DNA from: a virus
Reading direction: 5' to 3' (one strand)
IMG/VR virus record: IMGVR_UViG_3300025930_000004
Span: 1 to 53,472 of that record
Length of the DNA: 53,472 nucleotides
The notes beneath the pieces were generated by a model. The model was not told the DNA's origin. It saw nothing but the letters and a program-made list of their open reading frames with translations, and did not search any database. Below, piece after piece: positions 1 through 53,373 of this stretch (position 1 is the stretch's first letter; each line of letters begins with the position of its first letter). The translations under genes were made by a program, and so were the position numbers.

Positions 1-99
1 AGGGTTGCGTGGCGTATTATTTGATGGTACGATATTAGCGCCGGGCTCGTATTCAGCCAGGCACAGGTTTCGACTCGACTTGGGGTCCGGTCAAAACCA
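1..99. repeat. Terminal direct repeat, left copy (99 bp)
   Basis: Identical base for base to the last 99 bases of the window. Exact identity with this length is typical of a circular molecule opened during assembly, so the unique genome is about 53,373 bp. A true short terminal repeat of a linear virion genome is possible but less likely. The repeat lies within the gene-free region, and a probable promoter is inside it. Confidence 0.95.
5..33 (+). promoter_or_regulatory. Putative sigma70 promoter P1 of the non-coding region
   Basis: TTGCGT (5-10), a 17-base spacer and TACGAT (28-33). Transcription would begin near base 40 and run into the terminator hairpin at 109-153. No open reading frame with a ribosome site follows, so the product would be an RNA of about 115 bases. 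Confidence 0.4.
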
Positions 100-153
100 A
101 CCAGTATACCGGGGGACACAAGCTGCAGGGTCTGTGTCTCCCGGTCTTTTTTT
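40..153 (+). ncRNA. Putative small RNA, about 115 nt, ending in a rho-independent terminator
   Basis: The segment lies between promoter P1 and a strong terminator and has no convincing coding frame. It contains GTTTCGACTCGAC, a partly self-complementary stretch, and TTGGGGTCCG, which reappears almost unchanged near 278-287. The family is not recognised. It could instead be the 5' domain of a longer structured RNA that continues towards base 925. Confidence 0.35.
109..153 (+). terminator. Rho-independent terminator in the non-coding region
   Basis: A 12-base-pair stem (109-120 with 133-144, one G-U pair) with a 12-base loop is followed directly by TCTTTTTTT. The T-run is only on the plus strand, which supports plus-strand transcription of this region. 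Confidence 0.7.
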
Positions 154-435
154 GGTGCAAACACCGGCTTGTGCAGGGCGCACCGGCGCATTCATTGGTA
201 GGATAAAACACAAGCCGCTGATCCACAAATGAAGGATTAGCGGCTTGGTCCGTCCCAGCAGGGGCGGCGTTTATGATGATTGGGGTCCGTGCCTCGTCTT
301 GCGCTCCAAACTTGCCTAAAATAATTATCGTAAAGAATAGCCGTTTCCTTCACTTTCGCCTAATGAACTTGTCAGCAATTTGTAAGTATTGGGCCGGGCC
401 TTGACGCCAGCAAACTGACGTGCTAGACTGAGTAT
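154..435. other. Gene-free structured stretch
   Basis: No coding frame with a credible start is seen. It holds a near-perfect 13-base-pair hairpin (212-224 with 234-246, 9-base loop). On the minus strand that hairpin is followed by GTGTTTTAT, a weak terminator-like tail. A smaller hairpin of type CCGTCCC-AGCA-GGGGCGG follows at about 250-266. A-rich sequence lies around 316-340. I cannot say which strand is functional here. Confidence 0.5.
401..429 (+). promoter_or_regulatory. Putative extended -10 promoter P2 of the non-coding region
   Basis: TTGACG (401-406), a 17-base spacer ending TGC, then TAGACT (424-429). The end of the spacer and start of the -10, GACGTGCTA, also occur in the promoter at 5647-5675. 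The transcript would start near 436. Confidence 0.5.
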
Positions 436-542
436 GCCGGGCCGAACGGAAGCGACCGGCGGTGGTAGTACATAAAAAATCTCCAGAACACTCCCCGATT
501 TATCGGGGGGAGGAATGGTAGCTATCTCTCTATCTCCCCTAA

Positions 543-571
543 TTGCTCGAACTGTCGAAAAGTGGTATAAT
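543..571 (+). promoter_or_regulatory. Putative promoter P3 with perfect -10
   Basis: TTGCTC (543-548), a 17-base spacer and a perfect TATAAT (566-571), preceded by TG in the extended -10 position. The start would be near 578. The transcript would run about 345 bases to the terminator at 886-922 with no credible gene inside, so an RNA product is likely. Confidence 0.6.
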
Positions 572-577
572 TACTCC

Positions 578-925
578 TGTGCAAAGGCACCGTGCCCCCA
601 CGGACGTTTCGCACCTTAACAAGAGAAACTTACGGGTTGTCGGCCATAGGTCTGGGCCGACGTAAAAGTTCTCCAGCGTAGAAACCTTCAAGCTATGCTT
701 AGGATTCTACTAACATGCAGAGGGTGGTATATCCGTTCTCTGCGGGCGCTCACCAGTGCGCCTATCGTGTCGATGTCGGTCAACACCTCAGAGCATCGAG
801 GTTGCGACCGGGTTAGTCTTCAGATGCAAGCTCCCCAGCTTTAGCGGGGAGTAACTGACTTGAGTTCCTCCTGCTGGTTGTATAAAAAAGAGAGTCGGCG
901 CTGCATAGGCCGACTCTCTTTTATT
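578..925 (+). ncRNA. Putative structured non-coding RNA, about 345 nt
   Basis: Bounded by promoter P3 and the terminator at 886-922. It contains consecutive hairpins: GTCGGCC/GGGCCGAC near 638-660, a TAGAAnCC/GGnTTCTA pair near 678-709, CAGAG/CTCTG near 719-743, GGCGC/GCGCC near 745-764, a TCGATG/CATCGA pair near 769-799, and CTCCCC/GGGGAG at 831-851 with a UUUA loop. The last hairpin and its flanks (GATGCAAG before, GTAACTGAC after) resemble the right-end hairpin of IS200/IS605 elements, which is also the 3' end of TnpB guide RNAs. No TnpB or IscB gene is present. It may be a large ornate phage RNA of the GOLLD/ROOL kind, but no family motif was identified. Confidence 0.5.
886..922. terminator. 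Bidirectional terminator between the non-coding RNA and the repressor operon
   Basis: A perfect 14-base-pair inverted repeat (886-899 with 909-922) with a 9-base loop. It carries A-runs on one side and T-runs on the other, so it can stop transcription from both strands. It separates the plus-strand RNA region from the minus-strand repressor operon. Confidence 0.85.
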
Positions 926-5831: not shown

Positions 5832-5871
5832 GTGCCAGTACCGTAAGGTCCCGGCAAAGAGTTTACACCAG

Positions 5872-5914
5872 TAGCTCCAATGTTCCCGGTGGGAATGTTG
5901 GAGCTATTTGTTTT
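5872..5914 (+). terminator. Rho-independent terminator ending the early region
   Basis: A 16-base stem (5872-5887 with 5891-5906) with a 2-base internal mismatch, loop GGT and the tail TTTGTTTT. It isolates the early transcription unit from the CHAT/EAD module. Confidence 0.85.
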
Positions 5915-5939
5915 CTGACTGGACCCCATTTTTCAGAAG

Positions 5940-5997
5940 GAGGGGATGTTACTAGCATCCCCTCCCCTGCCCGGTAGAGGGGACGAACCCCCACCGG
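5940..5997. other. Two hairpins upstream of the CHAT/EAD operon
   Basis: GAGGGGATG (5940-5948) pairs with CATCCCCTC (5956-5964) around a 7-base loop. CCGGT (5971-5975) pairs with ACCGG (5993-5997), with an inner GGGG/CCCC pairing. A weak -10, TATACT, follows at 6008-6013. This leader could control the module downstream. On the minus strand the second hairpin reads GGGGGTTCGTCCCC, like a tRNA T-arm, but no tRNA surrounds it. Confidence 0.5.
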
Positions 5998-6036
5998 ACA
6001 ATAACATTATACTCCTGCGCCGCCGCCAGCGAAATC

Positions 6037-7449: not shown

Positions 7450-8010
7450 GTGGAAAGCTGGAGCGTGTCCCATAAAGCCTTGCAGCTATTCTGTGCGTCG
7501 TTTTGGGAGACTGCGGACGATTGCCAGTTGATTCTGGATGAAATCGGCATCAGCGGCAGCAGAATCAACCTCTCCGAGCCTAGCATCATGCGCTGGCTCA
7601 GTATCATTCGTGAGTTGATGCGCAAGAACGACGGCTCGATGGGCCGTCTGGTCACTGTGCTGATAAAGCAATATCCAGAGAACAAACAATTGCTGGCCGT
7701 ATGTTCCCCCTGGATCGCAGCCGATCCAGCTATGCGTGGACAGTCTATGCAGCCGGAATCACCGGACGATGTACCACCCGGCGCTGTGCTGGTCAAAAAG
7801 TTCGTCAACGATAATTCTCTCGTGCCCGTGGTAGCGCCGCATGATTTTGCTGATGAGGCCGGGCTGGTTGTCCCACGAATCGACACGCTCTGGGAGGCGA
7901 TGGTTGAAACGGAGCGGCGGCTGAACGAACTGGAGCGGCGCTGGGATGAATTGTACCAGTGGAAAGATTCGCTATTTGGACAGCATACGTCCCAACAGGA
8001 AAACCCATGA
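7450..8010 (+). CDS. Probable EAD1-domain adaptor protein
   Basis: A 186-residue protein starting at GTG 7450, with GGGAGGGG about 10 bases upstream. Residues about 6-85 have the pattern of effector-associated domain 1: an N-terminal helix with aromatic residues, a central W-SII-EL helix, and the closing L-LIKQYPENKQL motif near 67-81. EAD domains are known to pair receptors with caspase-like or other effectors by homotypic contact. The middle is Pro-rich (100-130), and the C-terminus (145-178) is a charged coiled coil. Its place directly after a CHAT protease and a membrane protein supports this reading. The domain call rests on pattern recognition, so it needs profile comparison. Confidence 0.5.
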   Translation: MESWSVSHKALQLFCASFWETADDCQLILDEIGISGSRINLSEPSIMRWLSIIRELMRKNDGSMGRLVTVLIKQYPENKQLLAVCSPWIAADPAMRGQSMQPESPDDVPPGAVLVKKFVNDNSLVPVVAPHDFADEAGLVVPRIDTLWEAMVETERRLNELERRWDELYQWKDSLFGQHTSQQENP

Positions 8011-9554
8011 CAGAACCTACCATCGTAGCATCTTCTGACGAACTTCGCTCTGCGCTTTCCTCAGCCAAACCAGGCGCCGTCATCCAGTTGCGCACCGGCG
8101 CCTATCCTGGCGTCTACACCCTCAGCAAACCCGGCGTTACCCTTGAGCCCGTTCCCGGCGAGTCACCACGATTCACCGGCCCACCGAAACCCATCGCAGG
8201 CACAAAACCGATTTGGCTGAATCTCCAGTCAGCCGCCAAAGGTGCAACGGTGCGCTACCTGGCTTTCGAGCGCATGGGCAACATCGAGGGCGCCAAAGCC
8301 TATAACGACTTTGGCATCCAGATCGGCGCTCCAGACGTGACGATTGACACTTGTCGTCTCCAGGGCATGACGAAGGGCGTCCAGGTAGTCGGCAAGGCGT
8401 CAACCGGCGTAACCATCATTCGCAACCATATTGGCCCGACCTATCAGGCTAACATCGTTGTCGCCACCAGCTACGGCGTAGTGCGTAAGCTGCTCATCAC
8501 TCAGAACACCCTAGAGGCCAGCTATATCGAGGATGGGGTACAGACGATACAGGATTTCCAGGCGCCCAATACCGAGACGGACGTGTCGAATTTGGGCGTC
8601 ATTATCTACGGCAACACGATTGACTCGCACGGGGAAAACGCCCTTGATTTCAAGGGCGCCGCCCTGGTGGTGGCTGAGGGCAACCTGATACGCCACATTG
8701 CCGGGTCCAACGATGGGCCACTAGGCGGGTGGGATACCACGTCTGGCATGTCCATCATGCACGGCGCCAACGCCAGTAAGGGCCAAATCTGCCAAATCCT
8801 GGTGCGCAATAACGACATACAGGAATCTTCCGGGGGCATTCGAGTATTTGCCGGCTGGAAGGTGGTTCACAACGTCCTGGTCAGCAACAATTTCTCGATG
8901 GCTCCTGCGCCGCACGAAGGCGTTGGCATCTTGCAGAATGGCGACGCATCCAACGCCGCTATCAAAAACAACCTGGTCGCCGGGCACAAGGGCGGCGACC
9001 TCGTACTATCGGTGGACTCGCCAGAGTTCAAAAATAACCCGCCCTTTGTAGGGCCGGGCGTGGCATTGACCACGACGCTGGGCGATGGCAGCGGGCGCAT
9101 CGTGTTGCTGAAAGATGCAAGCTATTTTACAGACTGGTTTGGCCGCATGGACCTACCACCCGAAGTCCTCTATCTGAAGAATCAACGGTGCGTGGTGCAG
9201 GCTGTGGATTACTCAGCCAACACCGTCACACTGGACCGTGATGTAGAGTGGCAGGATGGCGACCCGGTGTTCTGGCGCAGCCCTGAGCCGGTTGTGGGCT
9301 TTCAGTCTGATGACTATATCCCGCCGACAGAACCGCCCGTAGAGCCAACAGAACCACCCGTGGAGCCTGTAGAGCCACCAGTCGAAACCGGCACGATTAT
9401 CTTGACGGTGACTATCGACGCAACGGCGGAACAGGCGCAGGCAATCAGAGATGCCATTGAGGATGGCGCTATCAGCATCGGCGTGGCTATTGGCGACGTG
9501 GTTGTACCGGGTGGTGTGGCCGTGGCAGGCGCTGTTGAGGACGACGAACTGTAG
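8007..9554 (+). CDS. Right-handed beta-helix tail spike-like protein
   Basis: A 515-residue protein. Residues about 5-400 show short repeated strands with N, G and I/V ladders typical of pectate-lyase-type parallel beta-helices, used by phages to bind or cut surface polysaccharide. A Pro/Glu/Thr linker (about 440-460, PPVEP repeats) leads to a small C-terminal domain (463-515). The ATG at 8007 overlaps the preceding TGA and has AGGAAA upstream. It is similar in plan to the much larger spike at 35179. The overlap couples it to the EAD gene, although its function looks structural. Confidence 0.65.
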   Translation: MTEPTIVASSDELRSALSSAKPGAVIQLRTGAYPGVYTLSKPGVTLEPVPGESPRFTGPPKPIAGTKPIWLNLQSAAKGATVRYLAFERMGNIEGAKAYNDFGIQIGAPDVTIDTCRLQGMTKGVQVVGKASTGVTIIRNHIGPTYQANIVVATSYGVVRKLLITQNTLEASYIEDGVQTIQDFQAPNTETDVSNLGVIIYGNTIDSHGENALDFKGAALVVAEGNLIRHIAGSNDGPLGGWDTTSGMSIMHGANASKGQICQILVRNNDIQESSGGIRVFAGWKVVHNVLVSNNFSMAPAPHEGVGILQNGDASNAAIKNNLVAGHKGGDLVLSVDSPEFKNNPPFVGPGVALTTTLGDGSGRIVLLKDASYFTDWFGRMDLPPEVLYLKNQRCVVQAVDYSANTVTLDRDVEWQDGDPVFWRSPEPVVGFQSDDYIPPTEPPVEPTEPPVEPVEPPVETGTIILTVTIDATAEQAQAIRDAIEDGAISIGVAIGDVVVPGGVAVAGAVEDDEL

Positions 9555-15247: not shown

Positions 15248-15721
15248 ATGGCGCTGAACAATGCACAAGACGCCATCATTGACGACCGCCGCCGCCTGGT
15301 TGCATCGCTCATTCTGCGCAAGCGCACGCAGCGGGAGGTTGTGACTGCGCTGACTATACAAGGCTATCGCAACCCAGACACCGGCGAACCGTGGAGCCTT
15401 GCCACCGTCAATGCCGATGTGCAGGCGCTACGCAGGCAATGGCGCAAAGAGGCAAGGCAGGATACAGCCGAACACAAGACTCGCCAGTTTGCCGAGTTGA
15501 ACGAGGTGATGAAGCAAGGGTGGGTAGACAACGATTTGAATGCGGTGTTGCGGGCGATGAAACAGCAGGCGGAATTGCTGGGGCTGGATGCGCCGACCGA
15601 GGAGGATCAGTTCGTTGTGGGCATGACATTGCCGGAATGGGAGAAGCGCCAAGCGACCAGCCGCCAGCAGGCAGCCGAGACGATGGAATTGTTTGACGAT
15701 GAGTTGGACACCGAGGACTAA
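15248..15721 (+). CDS. terS: Small terminase subunit (probable)
   Basis: A 157-residue helical protein directly before the large terminase. Residues about 10-55 contain a helix-turn-helix-like segment (RTQREVVTALTIQGY), then a charged coiled region and an acidic C-terminus (DDELDTED). TerS proteins recognise packaging sites and regulate TerL. The call rests on position, size and HTH pattern rather than clear sequence identity. ATG 15248 is chosen; TTG 15239 is possible. It overlaps the TerL start. Confidence 0.65.
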   Translation: MALNNAQDAIIDDRRRLVASLILRKRTQREVVTALTIQGYRNPDTGEPWSLATVNADVQALRRQWRKEARQDTAEHKTRQFAELNEVMKQGWVDNDLNAVLRAMKQQAELLGLDAPTEEDQFVVGMTLPEWEKRQATSRQQAAETMELFDDELDTED

Positions 15722-18452
15722 ACGCTGTGCGTTCCTTATCGACAACCTTGACTTGCCAACGGCCACAGGCTACCCGGCGGCGGTGTGGGAGGGGTTTCAG
15801 ATAAGGCACCTTGAAGATGACAGCACATTCCGAGCCGAGGTCAAGAGCCGCCAGATTGCCTGGTCGTGGCTCAGTGCAGCGGAAGCGGTAGCGGTGGGTC
15901 TGCTGAACAGAGAAAGCAGCGTCTTTATCAGCATCAATTTAGACGAGGCGAAAGAGAAGATACGCTACGTCCACAATGTCATTGACGGTCTACCCCGCTC
16001 TATGCGGCCTAGACTGGTGACAAATAACAGAACCGAACTGGAATTCGACAACGGCGCCCGCCTGATGAGCTTACCGGCCATTCCGCCCAGAGGCAAGGCG
16101 CAGATGAACGTATACCTTGATGAGTTTGCGCACGTCAGAGAGGATAACGTGATATACACCGCAGCCCTACCGATGATTACAAAAGGCAACCGGCGGCTGA
16201 GGATGGCCAGCTCACCGATGGGGGCAAGCGGGCGATTCTGGGAGGTATTTAAGGAATCACTCAGGAAGTATCCCGGCTACACCCGCAAGTCGACGCCGTG
16301 GTGGGAGGTACAGGCGTTTTGTCTGGACGTGCGAGAAGCCAGGAAACAGGGCGGCGTGCTGACTACCGAACAGATGGTCGAACAATACGGCAATGAGCGG
16401 GTGAAAGCCATCTACGCCAATATGCCGATAGAAGATTTTATGCAGGAGTATTGTTGTCACCTGGCGAGTACAGAGGTGATGCTGGCGAATGGACTCACAA
16501 AACGGTTCATTGATTTAGATATTGGCGACCAGTTAGTGTATAATAATGGTTGTCAAGTCTCACCATGCACCGTTGAGGAGTTCAGGAGAATTGGAATGCG
16601 CAGCATCATCGAGATCACAATGGAGACAGGGGCAACCTTCGCAGCGAGTACAGGGCACAAGATGAAAGGTAGGCAGGGTAAAGAGCCTATCGACACAATA
16701 GAGGAGGTTAGCTATGTTTTTGCGCCTCACCGTGTTGATGGGGAGCAAGAGGCGCTTGCTCGTCTTGTGGGGATGAATTTGGGCGACGGAACGATAGCGC
16801 AACGCGCCGGACGATACAAGAAAAAGAGTGGCGAGGTGAGCCTGTATCCTTACTTCCAGGCGTCCTTTTACTCTCAGAAGCAAGAGGACTTAGAAGACGT
16901 TGCAAGTGATTTTGTCATGGCGGGATTGGCAGAAACAAAACCCAACGTGCTTTTCAAAAAGGGTAGCAGACTGGAATACGACGCCTTTCAATTGCATGTT
17001 TCCCAGAAGGCGGCGCAGCGACTGGTTGATGCTGGCTGCGTGGTGGGGAAGAAGATAGCGACGGATTTTGCTATTCCTGATTGGATTCTAAACGGAGGGC
17101 CGACTGTCAAGCGTGAGTTTTTGGCTGCATTGTTTGGCGCTGAAGGCTCTACGCCGCGAGACAAGAATCAAAAACAAAAAAACAAGTTGCCACAAACACT
17201 TTATCTGAGGATGTTCAAAACCGAGCCGATGCCCCGTTTCTTCGAGCAGGTGCAGGGGATGTTGCAGGAGTTCGGCGTACAGTCGACCTTGACCAGCCGA
17301 CAATTAGATGGGCGTGTGAGCTATTCGATCATGGTTCACTCGACAGCAGAAAACGCTTTGGTGTTTTGGAGAAACGTGGGCTATCGCTATGCGCGGCGCA
17401 AGGAGGAAATGGCGTTTCTGTGGTCTCACTATCTGCAAGCCTATCAGCACGAAAGAGTCATGCGCAAGCAAGAGGCGACCGCATTGCGGGCTGGTGGATT
17501 GACCTACAAAGCGATGGCCGATCATCTGGGCATTAGCGCGCAAGGGGCATATAACCTGACGAACAAGCCGATCATGCGCTCATCGTGGGACTTTCCACAG
17601 TTCGGTGAGTGGGTCGGCACTCGCTATCAAGATGGCACGCTCTACATTCGAGTAACAGACCGGCGCGTGATTGGCGAAGATGAGGTTTTTAATATCAGGG
17701 TCGACTCGCCTGATCACTCCTATTTGTTGGCAGATGGGCTCGACAATTACAACTGCTTATTCGTTGATGAAACCACCGCTTGGATTACCTGGGAGGAAAT
17801 CAAGGAAGCGCAGGCGCTGGTGCCCGACCTGGCCTGCTACCTGGCCAAAGCCACCGGCACGTTGACGCCGGAGATACACGAAGCCATTGAACACTTGCGG
17901 CGGGGGATAGCCGTCAGTCGCACAGAGCAAGCCTATACCGTAGGGGTGGACATTGGGCGCACCCGCAACACCACAGAGATATACGCCATTGGCTTGACCA
18001 CCACAGACACCTACCCGCTGAGGCTGGCGCTATCGCTGGATAACGTGACCTTTGACGACCAGCTATCGGTAATTGTGGAAGTGTTGGACCGGCTGCCAGT
18101 GGTGAGCATGATGATTGACGAAACCGGCATCGGGCGCAACCTGGCAGAGAACGCAGAGAAGTATCACCCGGCCAAAGTACAGGGCGTGACGTTCACCGGG
18201 CCGCTAAAGGCACTGTGGGCGACCAATGCGAAGATGCTGATACAGGGACACAAAACGCCGTTGCCAGTGGATAAAGACATGGCCTATCAGTTCCACAGCA
18301 TCAAAAAGCTGGTGACCGCCAGCCGTAACTTGGCATTTGATACAGCGACGAATGAGAAGCACCACGCCGACAAGTTTTGGGCCTGGGCGTTGGCACTAGC
18401 CGGGGCTCATGATGGACAGGGCGGCGGCGGCTTTGTGTTGAGGTATGCGTGA
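15699..18452 (+). CDS. terL: Large terminase with intein
   Basis: The 917-residue precursor has a packaging ATPase with Walker-A-like KSRQIAWSW (49-57) and Walker B VYLDEFA (138-144), and a RuvC-like nuclease in the C-terminal extein: GVDIG, MMIDETG and HHADKFW supply the three acidic residues. The extein motif QEYC/CLFVDE is interrupted at residues 253-685 by an intein. After splicing the enzyme would be about 484 residues, the normal terminase size. It pumps DNA into the prohead through the portal. The start at ATG 15699 overlaps terS by 23 bases. Confidence 0.9.
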   Translation: MSWTPRTKRCAFLIDNLDLPTATGYPAAVWEGFQIRHLEDDSTFRAEVKSRQIAWSWLSAAEAVAVGLLNRESSVFISINLDEAKEKIRYVHNVIDGLPRSMRPRLVTNNRTELEFDNGARLMSLPAIPPRGKAQMNVYLDEFAHVREDNVIYTAALPMITKGNRRLRMASSPMGASGRFWEVFKESLRKYPGYTRKSTPWWEVQAFCLDVREARKQGGVLTTEQMVEQYGNERVKAIYANMPIEDFMQEYCCHLASTEVMLANGLTKRFIDLDIGDQLVYNNGCQVSPCTVEEFRRIGMRSIIEITMETGATFAASTGHKMKGRQGKEPIDTIEEVSYVFAPHRVDGEQEALARLVGMNLGDGTIAQRAGRYKKKSGEVSLYPYFQASFYSQKQEDLEDVASDFVMAGLAETKPNVLFKKGSRLEYDAFQLHVSQKAAQRLVDAGCVVGKKIATDFAIPDWILNGGPTVKREFLAALFGAEGSTPRDKNQKQKNKLPQTLYLRMFKTEPMPRFFEQVQGMLQEFGVQSTLTSRQLDGRVSYSIMVHSTAENALVFWRNVGYRYARRKEEMAFLWSHYLQAYQHERVMRKQEATALRAGGLTYKAMADHLGISAQGAYNLTNKPIMRSSWDFPQFGEWVGTRYQDGTLYIRVTDRRVIGEDEVFNIRVDSPDHSYLLADGLDNYNCLFVDETTAWITWEEIKEAQALVPDLACYLAKATGTLTPEIHEAIEHLRRGIAVSRTEQAYTVGVDIGRTRNTTEIYAIGLTTTDTYPLRLALSLDNVTFDDQLSVIVEVLDRLPVVSMMIDETGIGRNLAENAEKYHPAKVQGVTFTGPLKALWATNAKMLIQGHKTPLPVDKDMAYQFHSIKKLVTASRNLAFDTATNEKHHADKFWAWALALAGAHDGQGGGGFVLRYA
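16455..17753 (+). mobile_element. LAGLIDADG intein within the large terminase
   Basis: The 433-residue insertion begins with Cys in block A (CHLASTEVMLANG) and ends YN before the +1 Cys (block G). The usual penultimate His is replaced by Tyr. Two endonuclease motifs, LVGMNLGDGT (about 354-363) and FLAALFGAEGS (about 474-484), mark it as a homing endonuclease intein. An additional helix-turn-helix (LTYKAMADHLGISAQ, about 600-614) lies between the second motif and the splicing end. It is inserted in a conserved terminase motif, as homing inteins usually are. Confidence 0.9.
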
Positions 18453-39269: not shown

Positions 39270-40051
39270 CCGACAATCGGATTCGCTGGAAGGGCCATAG
39301 TCAAGCCATTTCCGGCACGAATTACAAAATATATTCTGACAAGACGACGCCCAACGATTTCACCGGAACACCTGTTACACAGGCCGCCACCAGCCCCTAT
39401 GCGCCGGTCAACACGACGCTAGCAGAGAATATCCTGGCCGGGGCAACGTCTGTTCCGCTGGTCTCTGCAACCGGCTTCGCCAATGGGAATTACGGGAAAA
39501 TCGGGCGAGAGACTTTTCTGTTTGGCGGCTTGACCGGCGCTACCTTCGCCACCAGTCTGGGCGGGCAGCACAACACCATCAAACAGGACCACGCCGCCGG
39601 TACAGTGGTCTATAAAATGCACGAAACCTATCTCGATACCGGAGTCACTTACGGTACTCGCCATGTCATCCGCTATCGGGTGACGGCCACTATTGGCGGC
39701 GTTGAACTGGTAGCAGCTGAGGCTGTGACCGTAAAGCCATCGCTGCCAGATACGAATGACAAAATCGTCATCTGGGGCATTCAGGACAAGGCCTGGGGCG
39801 TGCCACACGCCGGGGCTGTAGTCACGCTCGGCATTGACAACCCATTCTCTTTTGCGCAGGGGCTGGCTGAAACGATTGACACCGCTACCCAGCAGGCCGT
39901 CACAGACGCATCGGGCTATTGGGAACTGACGGCGCATCGGGATATTGCCAGGGCTGGCGGCGGGTCGTTCGTGCTGACGATTGACAATGCGCGCTACGCC
40001 ATTGTAAGCCTGCCCGACCAGGACAATGTTTGCTACCTGGAGTGCATCTGA
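39266..40051 (+). CDS. Putative tail-tip protein with fibronectin-like domains
   Basis: A 261-residue beta-rich protein of the tail-tip region, starting at GTG that overlaps the methyltransferase stop, with AGGAG 8 bases upstream. The segment IRYRVTATIGGVELVAAEAVTV resembles a fibronectin/Ig-like strand pair (shown only in part here). It is probably structural. A heptad-repeat element follows after 3 bases. Confidence 0.55.
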   Translation: MTDNRIRWKGHSQAISGTNYKIYSDKTTPNDFTGTPVTQAATSPYAPVNTTLAENILAGATSVPLVSATGFANGNYGKIGRETFLFGGLTGATFATSLGGQHNTIKQDHAAGTVVYKMHETYLDTGVTYGTRHVIRYRVTATIGGVELVAAEAVTVKPSLPDTNDKIVIWGIQDKAWGVPHAGAVVTLGIDNPFSFAQGLAETIDTATQQAVTDASGYWELTAHRDIARAGGGSFVLTIDNARYAIVSLPDQDNVCYLECI

Positions 40052-40054
40052 AAA

Positions 40055-40170
40055 GGGGTAGACAGTAGACGGTAGACAGTAGAAGGGGAACTGTATCATG
40101 TTGACAATCAAATTTCAACGTGGCGAAGCAACCCCCTACTACTGTCTACCTACTACCTACTACCCCCTAC
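40055..40170. repeat. Heptad-repeat hairpin element, copy 3
   Basis: Left arm: GTAGACA GTAGACG GTAGACA GTAGAAG (period 7). Right arm: CTACTACTGTCTAC followed by CTACTAC repeats, complementary to the left. The core contains GGGGAAC and TTTCAACGTGGCGAAGC in the direct orientation. It fills the gap between two tail genes and ends 12 bases before ATG 40183. Confidence 0.85.
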
Positions 40171-53271: not shown

Positions 53272-53373
53272 TAGGCAAACATTAAAAACTTGTGAAGAAC
53301 CTATGAAGTTTACCCTACGACATTTTGCGCCGTAGTTGTAACGCCACTAGTGGAATTTTTCACGTACCCTTAG
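53272..53373. other. Gene-free segment joining the non-coding region
   Basis: No gene. It continues through the circular junction into bases 1-860, giving more than 1 kb without coding. A CCACTAGTGG palindrome is at about 53344-53353. Nothing else definite is seen. It may hold attP, which usually lies near the integrase/excisionase genes. Confidence 0.4.

Follow-up and report, generated by a model that had tools for sequence, protein, structure and literature searches.

The window, meaning the whole 53,472-nucleotide stretch of IMG/VR record IMGVR_UViG_3300025930_000004 that was analyzed, is a circular phage genome whose ends share a 99-nt assembly overlap. It encodes head, tail, terminase, and integrase proteins along with an excisionase-like HTH protein. 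Relatives of the large terminase were found on viral contigs and on four contigs from MAGs, each of which is labelled as Anaerolineales or Chloroflexi; therefore, the Anaerolineae-type class and one order around those genomes were searched for homologues of the region described below. The large terminase gene itself (15693-18452, + strand) carries at roughly codons 256 to 686 an intein with a LAGLIDADG domain, which is missing from the terminase's five closest relatives. Elsewhere, 7450-9554 (+ strand) encodes a protein that weakly matches the effector-associated domain EAD1, below the cut-off, followed by a right-handed beta-helix protein.

Because the circle is closed by the 99-nt overlap, the largest gap between genes spans 53272-53373 plus 1-1026, approximately 1.13 kb. 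An earlier note on this DNA had described the gap as gene-free and structured, and both descriptions held up. No open reading frame of at least 30 amino acids within 53272-1026 scores as coding under a codon model trained on this phage, and the neighbouring gene (1027-1236, - strand) scores 16.2 on the same model. Compared with dinucleotide shuffles, the gap folds with z scores of -4.4 (570-930) and -4.1 (1-420). Better-than-shuffle folding also occurs at several other places in the genome, and the gap is not unique in this respect. The genome's strongest fold lies at 40051-40170 (z of -9.7), where GTAGACAGTAGAC-type repeats and inverted copies surround a gene start, and a very stable intergenic fold at 5832-6036 (z of -6.2 and -5.6) contains a hairpin that resembles a terminator as well as a second, GC-rich structure.

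The two terminators proposed for the gap were likewise recovered: a perfect 14-bp inverted repeat at 886-922 (+ strand) and, by sequence and fold, a 13-bp stem followed by a T run at 109-153. Since A and T runs flank the stem at 886-922, this terminator is usable in both directions. The terminator at 109-153 is strong on the plus strand and could close a short RNA of about 110 nt at position 153; it is followed at 211-247 by a perfect 14-bp hairpin that lacks a T run, and no homologue was found for window positions 1-250. The three proposed promoters fared unequally. The one at 543-571 (+ strand) looks real, with a poor -35 box (TTGCTC) and a perfect extended -10 box (TGG-TATAAT); a single site like the one at 401-429 is what chance alone would give (1.4 expected), and the one at 5-33 is weak. 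No tRNA or tmRNA was detected in the window.

DNA searches returned no real homologues of the region in phage and plasmid records, and terminase- and integrase-related phages have no counterpart region. Searching 396 genomes of the class at the DNA level gave weak short matches, with the repeated ones at query positions of about 490 to 517 and 821 to 867. Two CTCCCC...GGGGAG hairpins, at 491-512 and 831-851, are the ends of a transposable element, which the earlier note had missed. Locus L130 has a TnpB gene between the two, with the first hairpin a short distance ahead and the second immediately after; the second hairpin also adjoins the TnpB end in L128, L132, and L134, and the TnpB identity in L128, L130, and L134 was confirmed by Pfam. 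The left-end hairpin of the window (481-521, + strand; inner stem 491-498/503-512 and short outer stem 481-485/516-521) shares 93% identity across 28 nt with the left ends that precede TnpB in L130 and L129. A right-end pattern occurred four times in the 396 genomes, in all four cases at TnpB ends. A slightly looser pattern hit five places in IMG/VR, among them L158, a full-length homologue of the window element. In another pattern search, L158 was the only real match, and its four other hits had none of the surrounding structure.

These shared ends delimit a mini element of 386 nt at 474-859 (+ strand). Left ends start after CAT, and the element start is therefore placed at 474; right ends with the shared hairpin diverge after TGAC, and the element end is therefore placed at 859. 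The CAT, which is the presumed TAM and left cleavage site (471-473, + strand; exact tip inferred), precedes the left end in L130, L145, L150, L153, L154, L156, L157, L158, and the window, as well as in TnpB-less (solo) elements with a visible left flank. Delimited TnpB-bearing elements measure 1237 to 1274 nt and other solo elements 283 to 383 nt. Neither the codon model nor TnpB searches revealed a TnpB or coding open reading frame inside the window element, and TnpB was found neither in this phage as a whole nor in the L158 record. Homologous subterminal hairpins are present at both ends, and a fixed left target without target duplication is indicated by CAT in 10/10 solo elements and by joined flanks that restore a start codon, as in non-autonomous members of the IS200/IS605 family. 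On these sequence comparisons, the identity of 474-859 as a TnpB-less IS200/IS605-family element is well supported. A second copy or an empty site of the element was not found, and its recent mobility is therefore unproven.

The insertion sites follow a consistent rule. When the flanks are joined, CAT becomes the ATG of an opposite-strand reading frame in all 10 delimited solo elements, and most of the restored ATGs lie behind a plausible ribosome-binding site, as in the window (CAGGAGGAACTCAA-ATG), L158 (CTAAGGAGAAGTT-ATG), and L167 (GGGGAGGGGAAGCC-ATG). The restored frame runs without a stop for 30 codons or more in every case but two: L166, which meets a contig end, and the window, where joining the flanks gives a 16-codon frame, MYYHRRSLPFGPAYSV (423-473, - strand), whose ATG abuts the left end of the element. 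The ribosome-binding site of this frame, AGGAGGA (about 866-872, - strand), lies on the far side of the element. An outward-facing AGGAG is located just inside the left tip of L166, L167, and L175, and AAAGGA in the TnpB element L130. The element may therefore supply a ribosome-binding site to the interrupted gene and may thereby replace the one that its insertion displaces.

IStrons also have IS605-type ends with structured RNA inside, through the combination of an IS605 element with a self-splicing group I intron. The window element has the same kind of ends and a structured RNA, but its RNA begins some 100 nt in from the left end, and no group I intron appears among the Rfam matches at any reported level. 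Moreover, the insertion is antisense to the gene, and splicing would therefore not mend the message. An IStron is thus a very improbable description of this element.

The promoter at 543-571 links the mini element to its TnpB-bearing relatives. The same promoter arrangement precedes TnpB in L130 and L141, and the promoter is also present in L158 and L167. Window positions 566-581, TATAATTACTCCTGTG, are identical over 16 nt to the promoter/start region of L141, where GTG starts TnpB; thus, the mini element kept a tnpB-type promoter without the gene. The RNA would start near 578. A predicted solo omegaRNA scaffold of 282 nt (578-859, + strand) is supported by 5'-domain covariance models R1 and R2, scaffold model R3, and the fold. 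It consists of a conserved 5' domain at 578-674 (+ strand), predicted stems P3 (679-683/705-709) and P4 (717-727/733-743), which are found in the same places in L158 by eye (679-743, + strand), and a TnpB-type omegaRNA scaffold at 744-859 (+ strand).

The 5' domain contains P1 (579-582/611-614), P1b (590-594/599-603), a lower P2 (623-631/666-673), an upper P2 (639-645/655-661), and the conserved motifs GGGUU (634-638) and GUAAAA (662-667), all on the + strand. Between the window and L158, 10/10 tested P2 pairs are kept, six of them through changes on both sides. A model built from these two sequences identified members in 2/46 genomes of one order, and eight members have 95.8% of cells paired with a covariation of 0.812 (0.270 when shuffled). 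The improved model identified 31 places in 15/396 genomes of the class, with up to six per genome, and the domain occurs in two other viral contigs (L158 and L161). Across 33 members, 89.5% of cells are paired and covariation is 0.848, versus 0.239 when shuffled; sliding the pairing by one column reduces it to 0.08. The upper P2 is 97.8% paired, with 7/7 pairs changed on both sides. Covariation among homologues, which the earlier note had named as a check, thus supports the structure. No 5'-domain member has a match in Rfam 15, and the homologue regions gave only tRNAs, in L180.

A tblastn search with one TnpB of this family found none in the 5'-domain loci, L161 included, and the domain was not found in 54 TnpB loci, of which 24 came from viral contigs and the class survey and 30 from carrier genomes. 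The exception is the carrier contig L176, in which a divergent TnpB-like coding fragment lies directly behind the 5' domain, which suggests how such elements arise or recombine. With the open reading frame gone, the domain might protect the RNA or aid TnpB recruitment. Roughly nine members, L177 to L181 among them, lack recognizable ends of the IS605 type. Downstream of the domain, L177, L178, L179, L180, and L181 share GGCGAAAACCAAGCC and CGCCTGTGGAGA-like motifs.

The earlier note had interpreted the gap as the source of a large ornate phage RNA with GOLLD and ROOL as precedents, on the premise that phages rarely devote so much DNA to this unless an abundant RNA is made. From this interpretation, a putative large structured RNA that has a promoter of its own and is followed by a terminator is retained, and the size, structure, and intergenic phage setting would suit a GOLLD- or ROOL-like RNA. 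However, an Rfam scan yielded no family at threshold, and neither covariance model is among the four weak matches (E values of up to 10). The transposon ends at 474 and 859 contradict such an RNA, the same RNA is found between transposon ends in bacterial chromosomes, and the element ends and omegaRNA scaffold already explain it. We therefore consider a GOLLD/ROOL-like identity to have hardly any chance of being correct. The premise on phage DNA economy fails as well, because the RNA belongs, as solo guide RNA, to an intergenic insertion of a TnpB-less IS200/IS605 element.

The 3' part of the RNA is a TnpB-type guide-RNA scaffold. Covariance model R3 was trained solely on 13 TnpB-bearing elements, and its sole match in the whole phage genome is window 744-859 (48.5 bits, E value of 1.7e-10); it also matches 9/33 other loci without a TnpB match alongside. 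Within this scaffold (+ strand) are P5 (745-749/758-762, loop 750-757), the right-end (RE) hairpin (831-836/846-851), after which the right end closes in TGAC, and a pseudoknot joining 754-757 with 854-857. The pseudoknot covaries among TnpB elements, with all 6 pairs formed in 13/13. For TnpB and solo elements together, 105/108 pairs form, compared with 88.1 +/- 2.6 after right ends were exchanged among elements; for solo elements alone, the values are 51/54 and 44.3 +/- 1.5. L158 retains 5 pairs and the window 4/6, a partly degenerate state, and this copy may therefore be decaying.

Such decay would be expected of a dead transposon relic that moved earlier with proteins supplied in trans and whose RNA is now without use in the phage. 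An interrupted frame of just 16 codons also looks decayed, and the phage has neither TnpB nor a further copy of the element. Against this, the promoter, P1, P2, and P5 are intact, as are the hairpins at either end, and the window ranks among the better members of the family (73.7 bits with R2 in addition to its R3 score). Covariation demonstrates selection on the RNA in the family, not necessarily in the window copy. A relic is an unlikely account, yet the strongest of the competing explanations.

Directly behind the TGAC lies the predicted guide, TTGAGTTCCTCCTGCTGG (860-877, + strand), its position given by the insertion flank and by the end of right-end conservation and its length taken from the 16 to 20 nt of ISDra2-like guides. 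It equals the DNA flanking the right end, with the presumed TAM CAT on the left, and flanks differ between elements. The guide is complementary to a ribosome-binding-site region, and phages carry TnpB-derived guide RNAs as regulators (PMC13418256), which raises the alternative that the RNA was co-opted by the phage, for example as a TldR-like or antisense regulator at ribosome-binding sites, and is no longer mobile. However, a TldR- or TnpB-like protein is absent from the phage, including any nuclease-dead TnpB homologue beside the guide RNA. The guide is the insertion flank, as in an unmodified transposon; no second target for it exists inside the phage; and the guide of L158 is another sequence and lies in another gene. 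Co-option is accordingly improbable.

We favor, with a probability of roughly 0.7, the reading that window 474-859 is a non-autonomous TnpB-less IS200/IS605 element with a solo omegaRNA used in trans by host TnpB. The element, carried on a temperate phage, would transcribe this RNA from its own promoter: the conserved 5' domain first, then the usual scaffold of a TnpB guide RNA, and last a guide taken from the DNA of the right flank. The terminator at 886-922 would end the transcript. With the nuclease gene lost and the promoter and guide RNA kept, the element probably borrows a host-made nuclease; TnpB, and for movement TnpA, would be supplied in trans by the host. TnpB was seen in 12/15 carrier genomes and not in the other 3/15, whether these are incomplete or not. 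Host TnpB loaded with the window RNA would cut element-free phage copies at CAT followed by TTGAGTTCCTCCTGCTGG, giving CATTTGAGTTCCTCCTGCTGG as the predicted target and GTACATTTGAGTTCCTCC as the predicted uninterrupted site in sister phages. Repair of the cut phage copy would then re-install the element, amounting to selfish retention or a gene drive. TnpB has been proposed to act against element-free copies on behalf of its own element (PMC8612924) and was shown to do so for plasmids (PMC11870625).

Parts of this arrangement are already known, namely ends-only IS605 derivatives (palindrome-associated transposable elements [PATEs]), TnpB guide RNAs, and phage-borne TldR guide RNAs. Like the window element, PATEs have left and right hairpin ends, lack a transposase gene, and are expected to move by means of proteins supplied in trans, and one described PATE keeps the tnpB end together with the right end (PMC7290912). 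Unlike PATEs, the window element has a promoter and a long conserved RNA between its ends, and its 5' RNA domain is not recognizable as a tnpB remnant. The omegaRNA (reRNA) of ISDra2 TnpB is similar in having a scaffold of about 116 nt that ends at the right end. Its solved pseudoknot joins -105 to -103 with -5 to -3 (PMC10097598), close to the -106 to -103 and -6 to -3 of the window. As in ISDra2, the guide is the right flank and the TAM the left flank (PMC8612924). In contrast to ISDra2, the window element has no tnpB in cis, approximately 166 nt of extra structured RNA before the scaffold, its own transcription unit, and a presumed TAM of CAT instead of TTGAT. Prophage TldR guide RNAs are also TnpB-derived guide RNAs on phages, but those systems include a TldR protein, whereas the window element has none, keeps its transposon ends intact, and uses its insertion flank as guide.

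In most accounts, a TnpB guide RNA comes from the very element that carries the TnpB gene; for IscB, omegaRNAs that stand alone have been reported. No description of a TnpB-less element equipped with a conserved 5' RNA domain of its own was found in Rfam or in the open-access literature searched, outside which relevant papers lie, and novelty is therefore not proven. Tentatively, and with somewhat less than even confidence, we propose a new RNA class in which a conserved RNA domain replaced tnpB in Anaerolineae-type genomes and phages. This would be a guide-RNA gene in its own right, capturing TnpB that is produced elsewhere, and elements a third of the usual size would spread between start codons by RNA-guided homing, also from phage to phage. 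If true, guides and nucleases separate in transposons and phages carry such guides; a split between guide and nuclease has been proposed on the way to tracrRNA and CRISPR RNA (PMC10097598). The element offers a compact natural test case for a trans-acting omegaRNA, with the prediction that TnpB from a carrier genome together with the window RNA should cut CAT-flanked empty sites. The start-codon rule, in which CAT is an antisense ATG, is directly checkable across elements. As a separate observation, another phage contig (L157, 10088-10353, + strand) carries a further TnpB-less member of the family, distinct from the window element and 266 nt long; it retains remnants of both tnpB ends, and its insertion point is the start codon of a portal-like gene.
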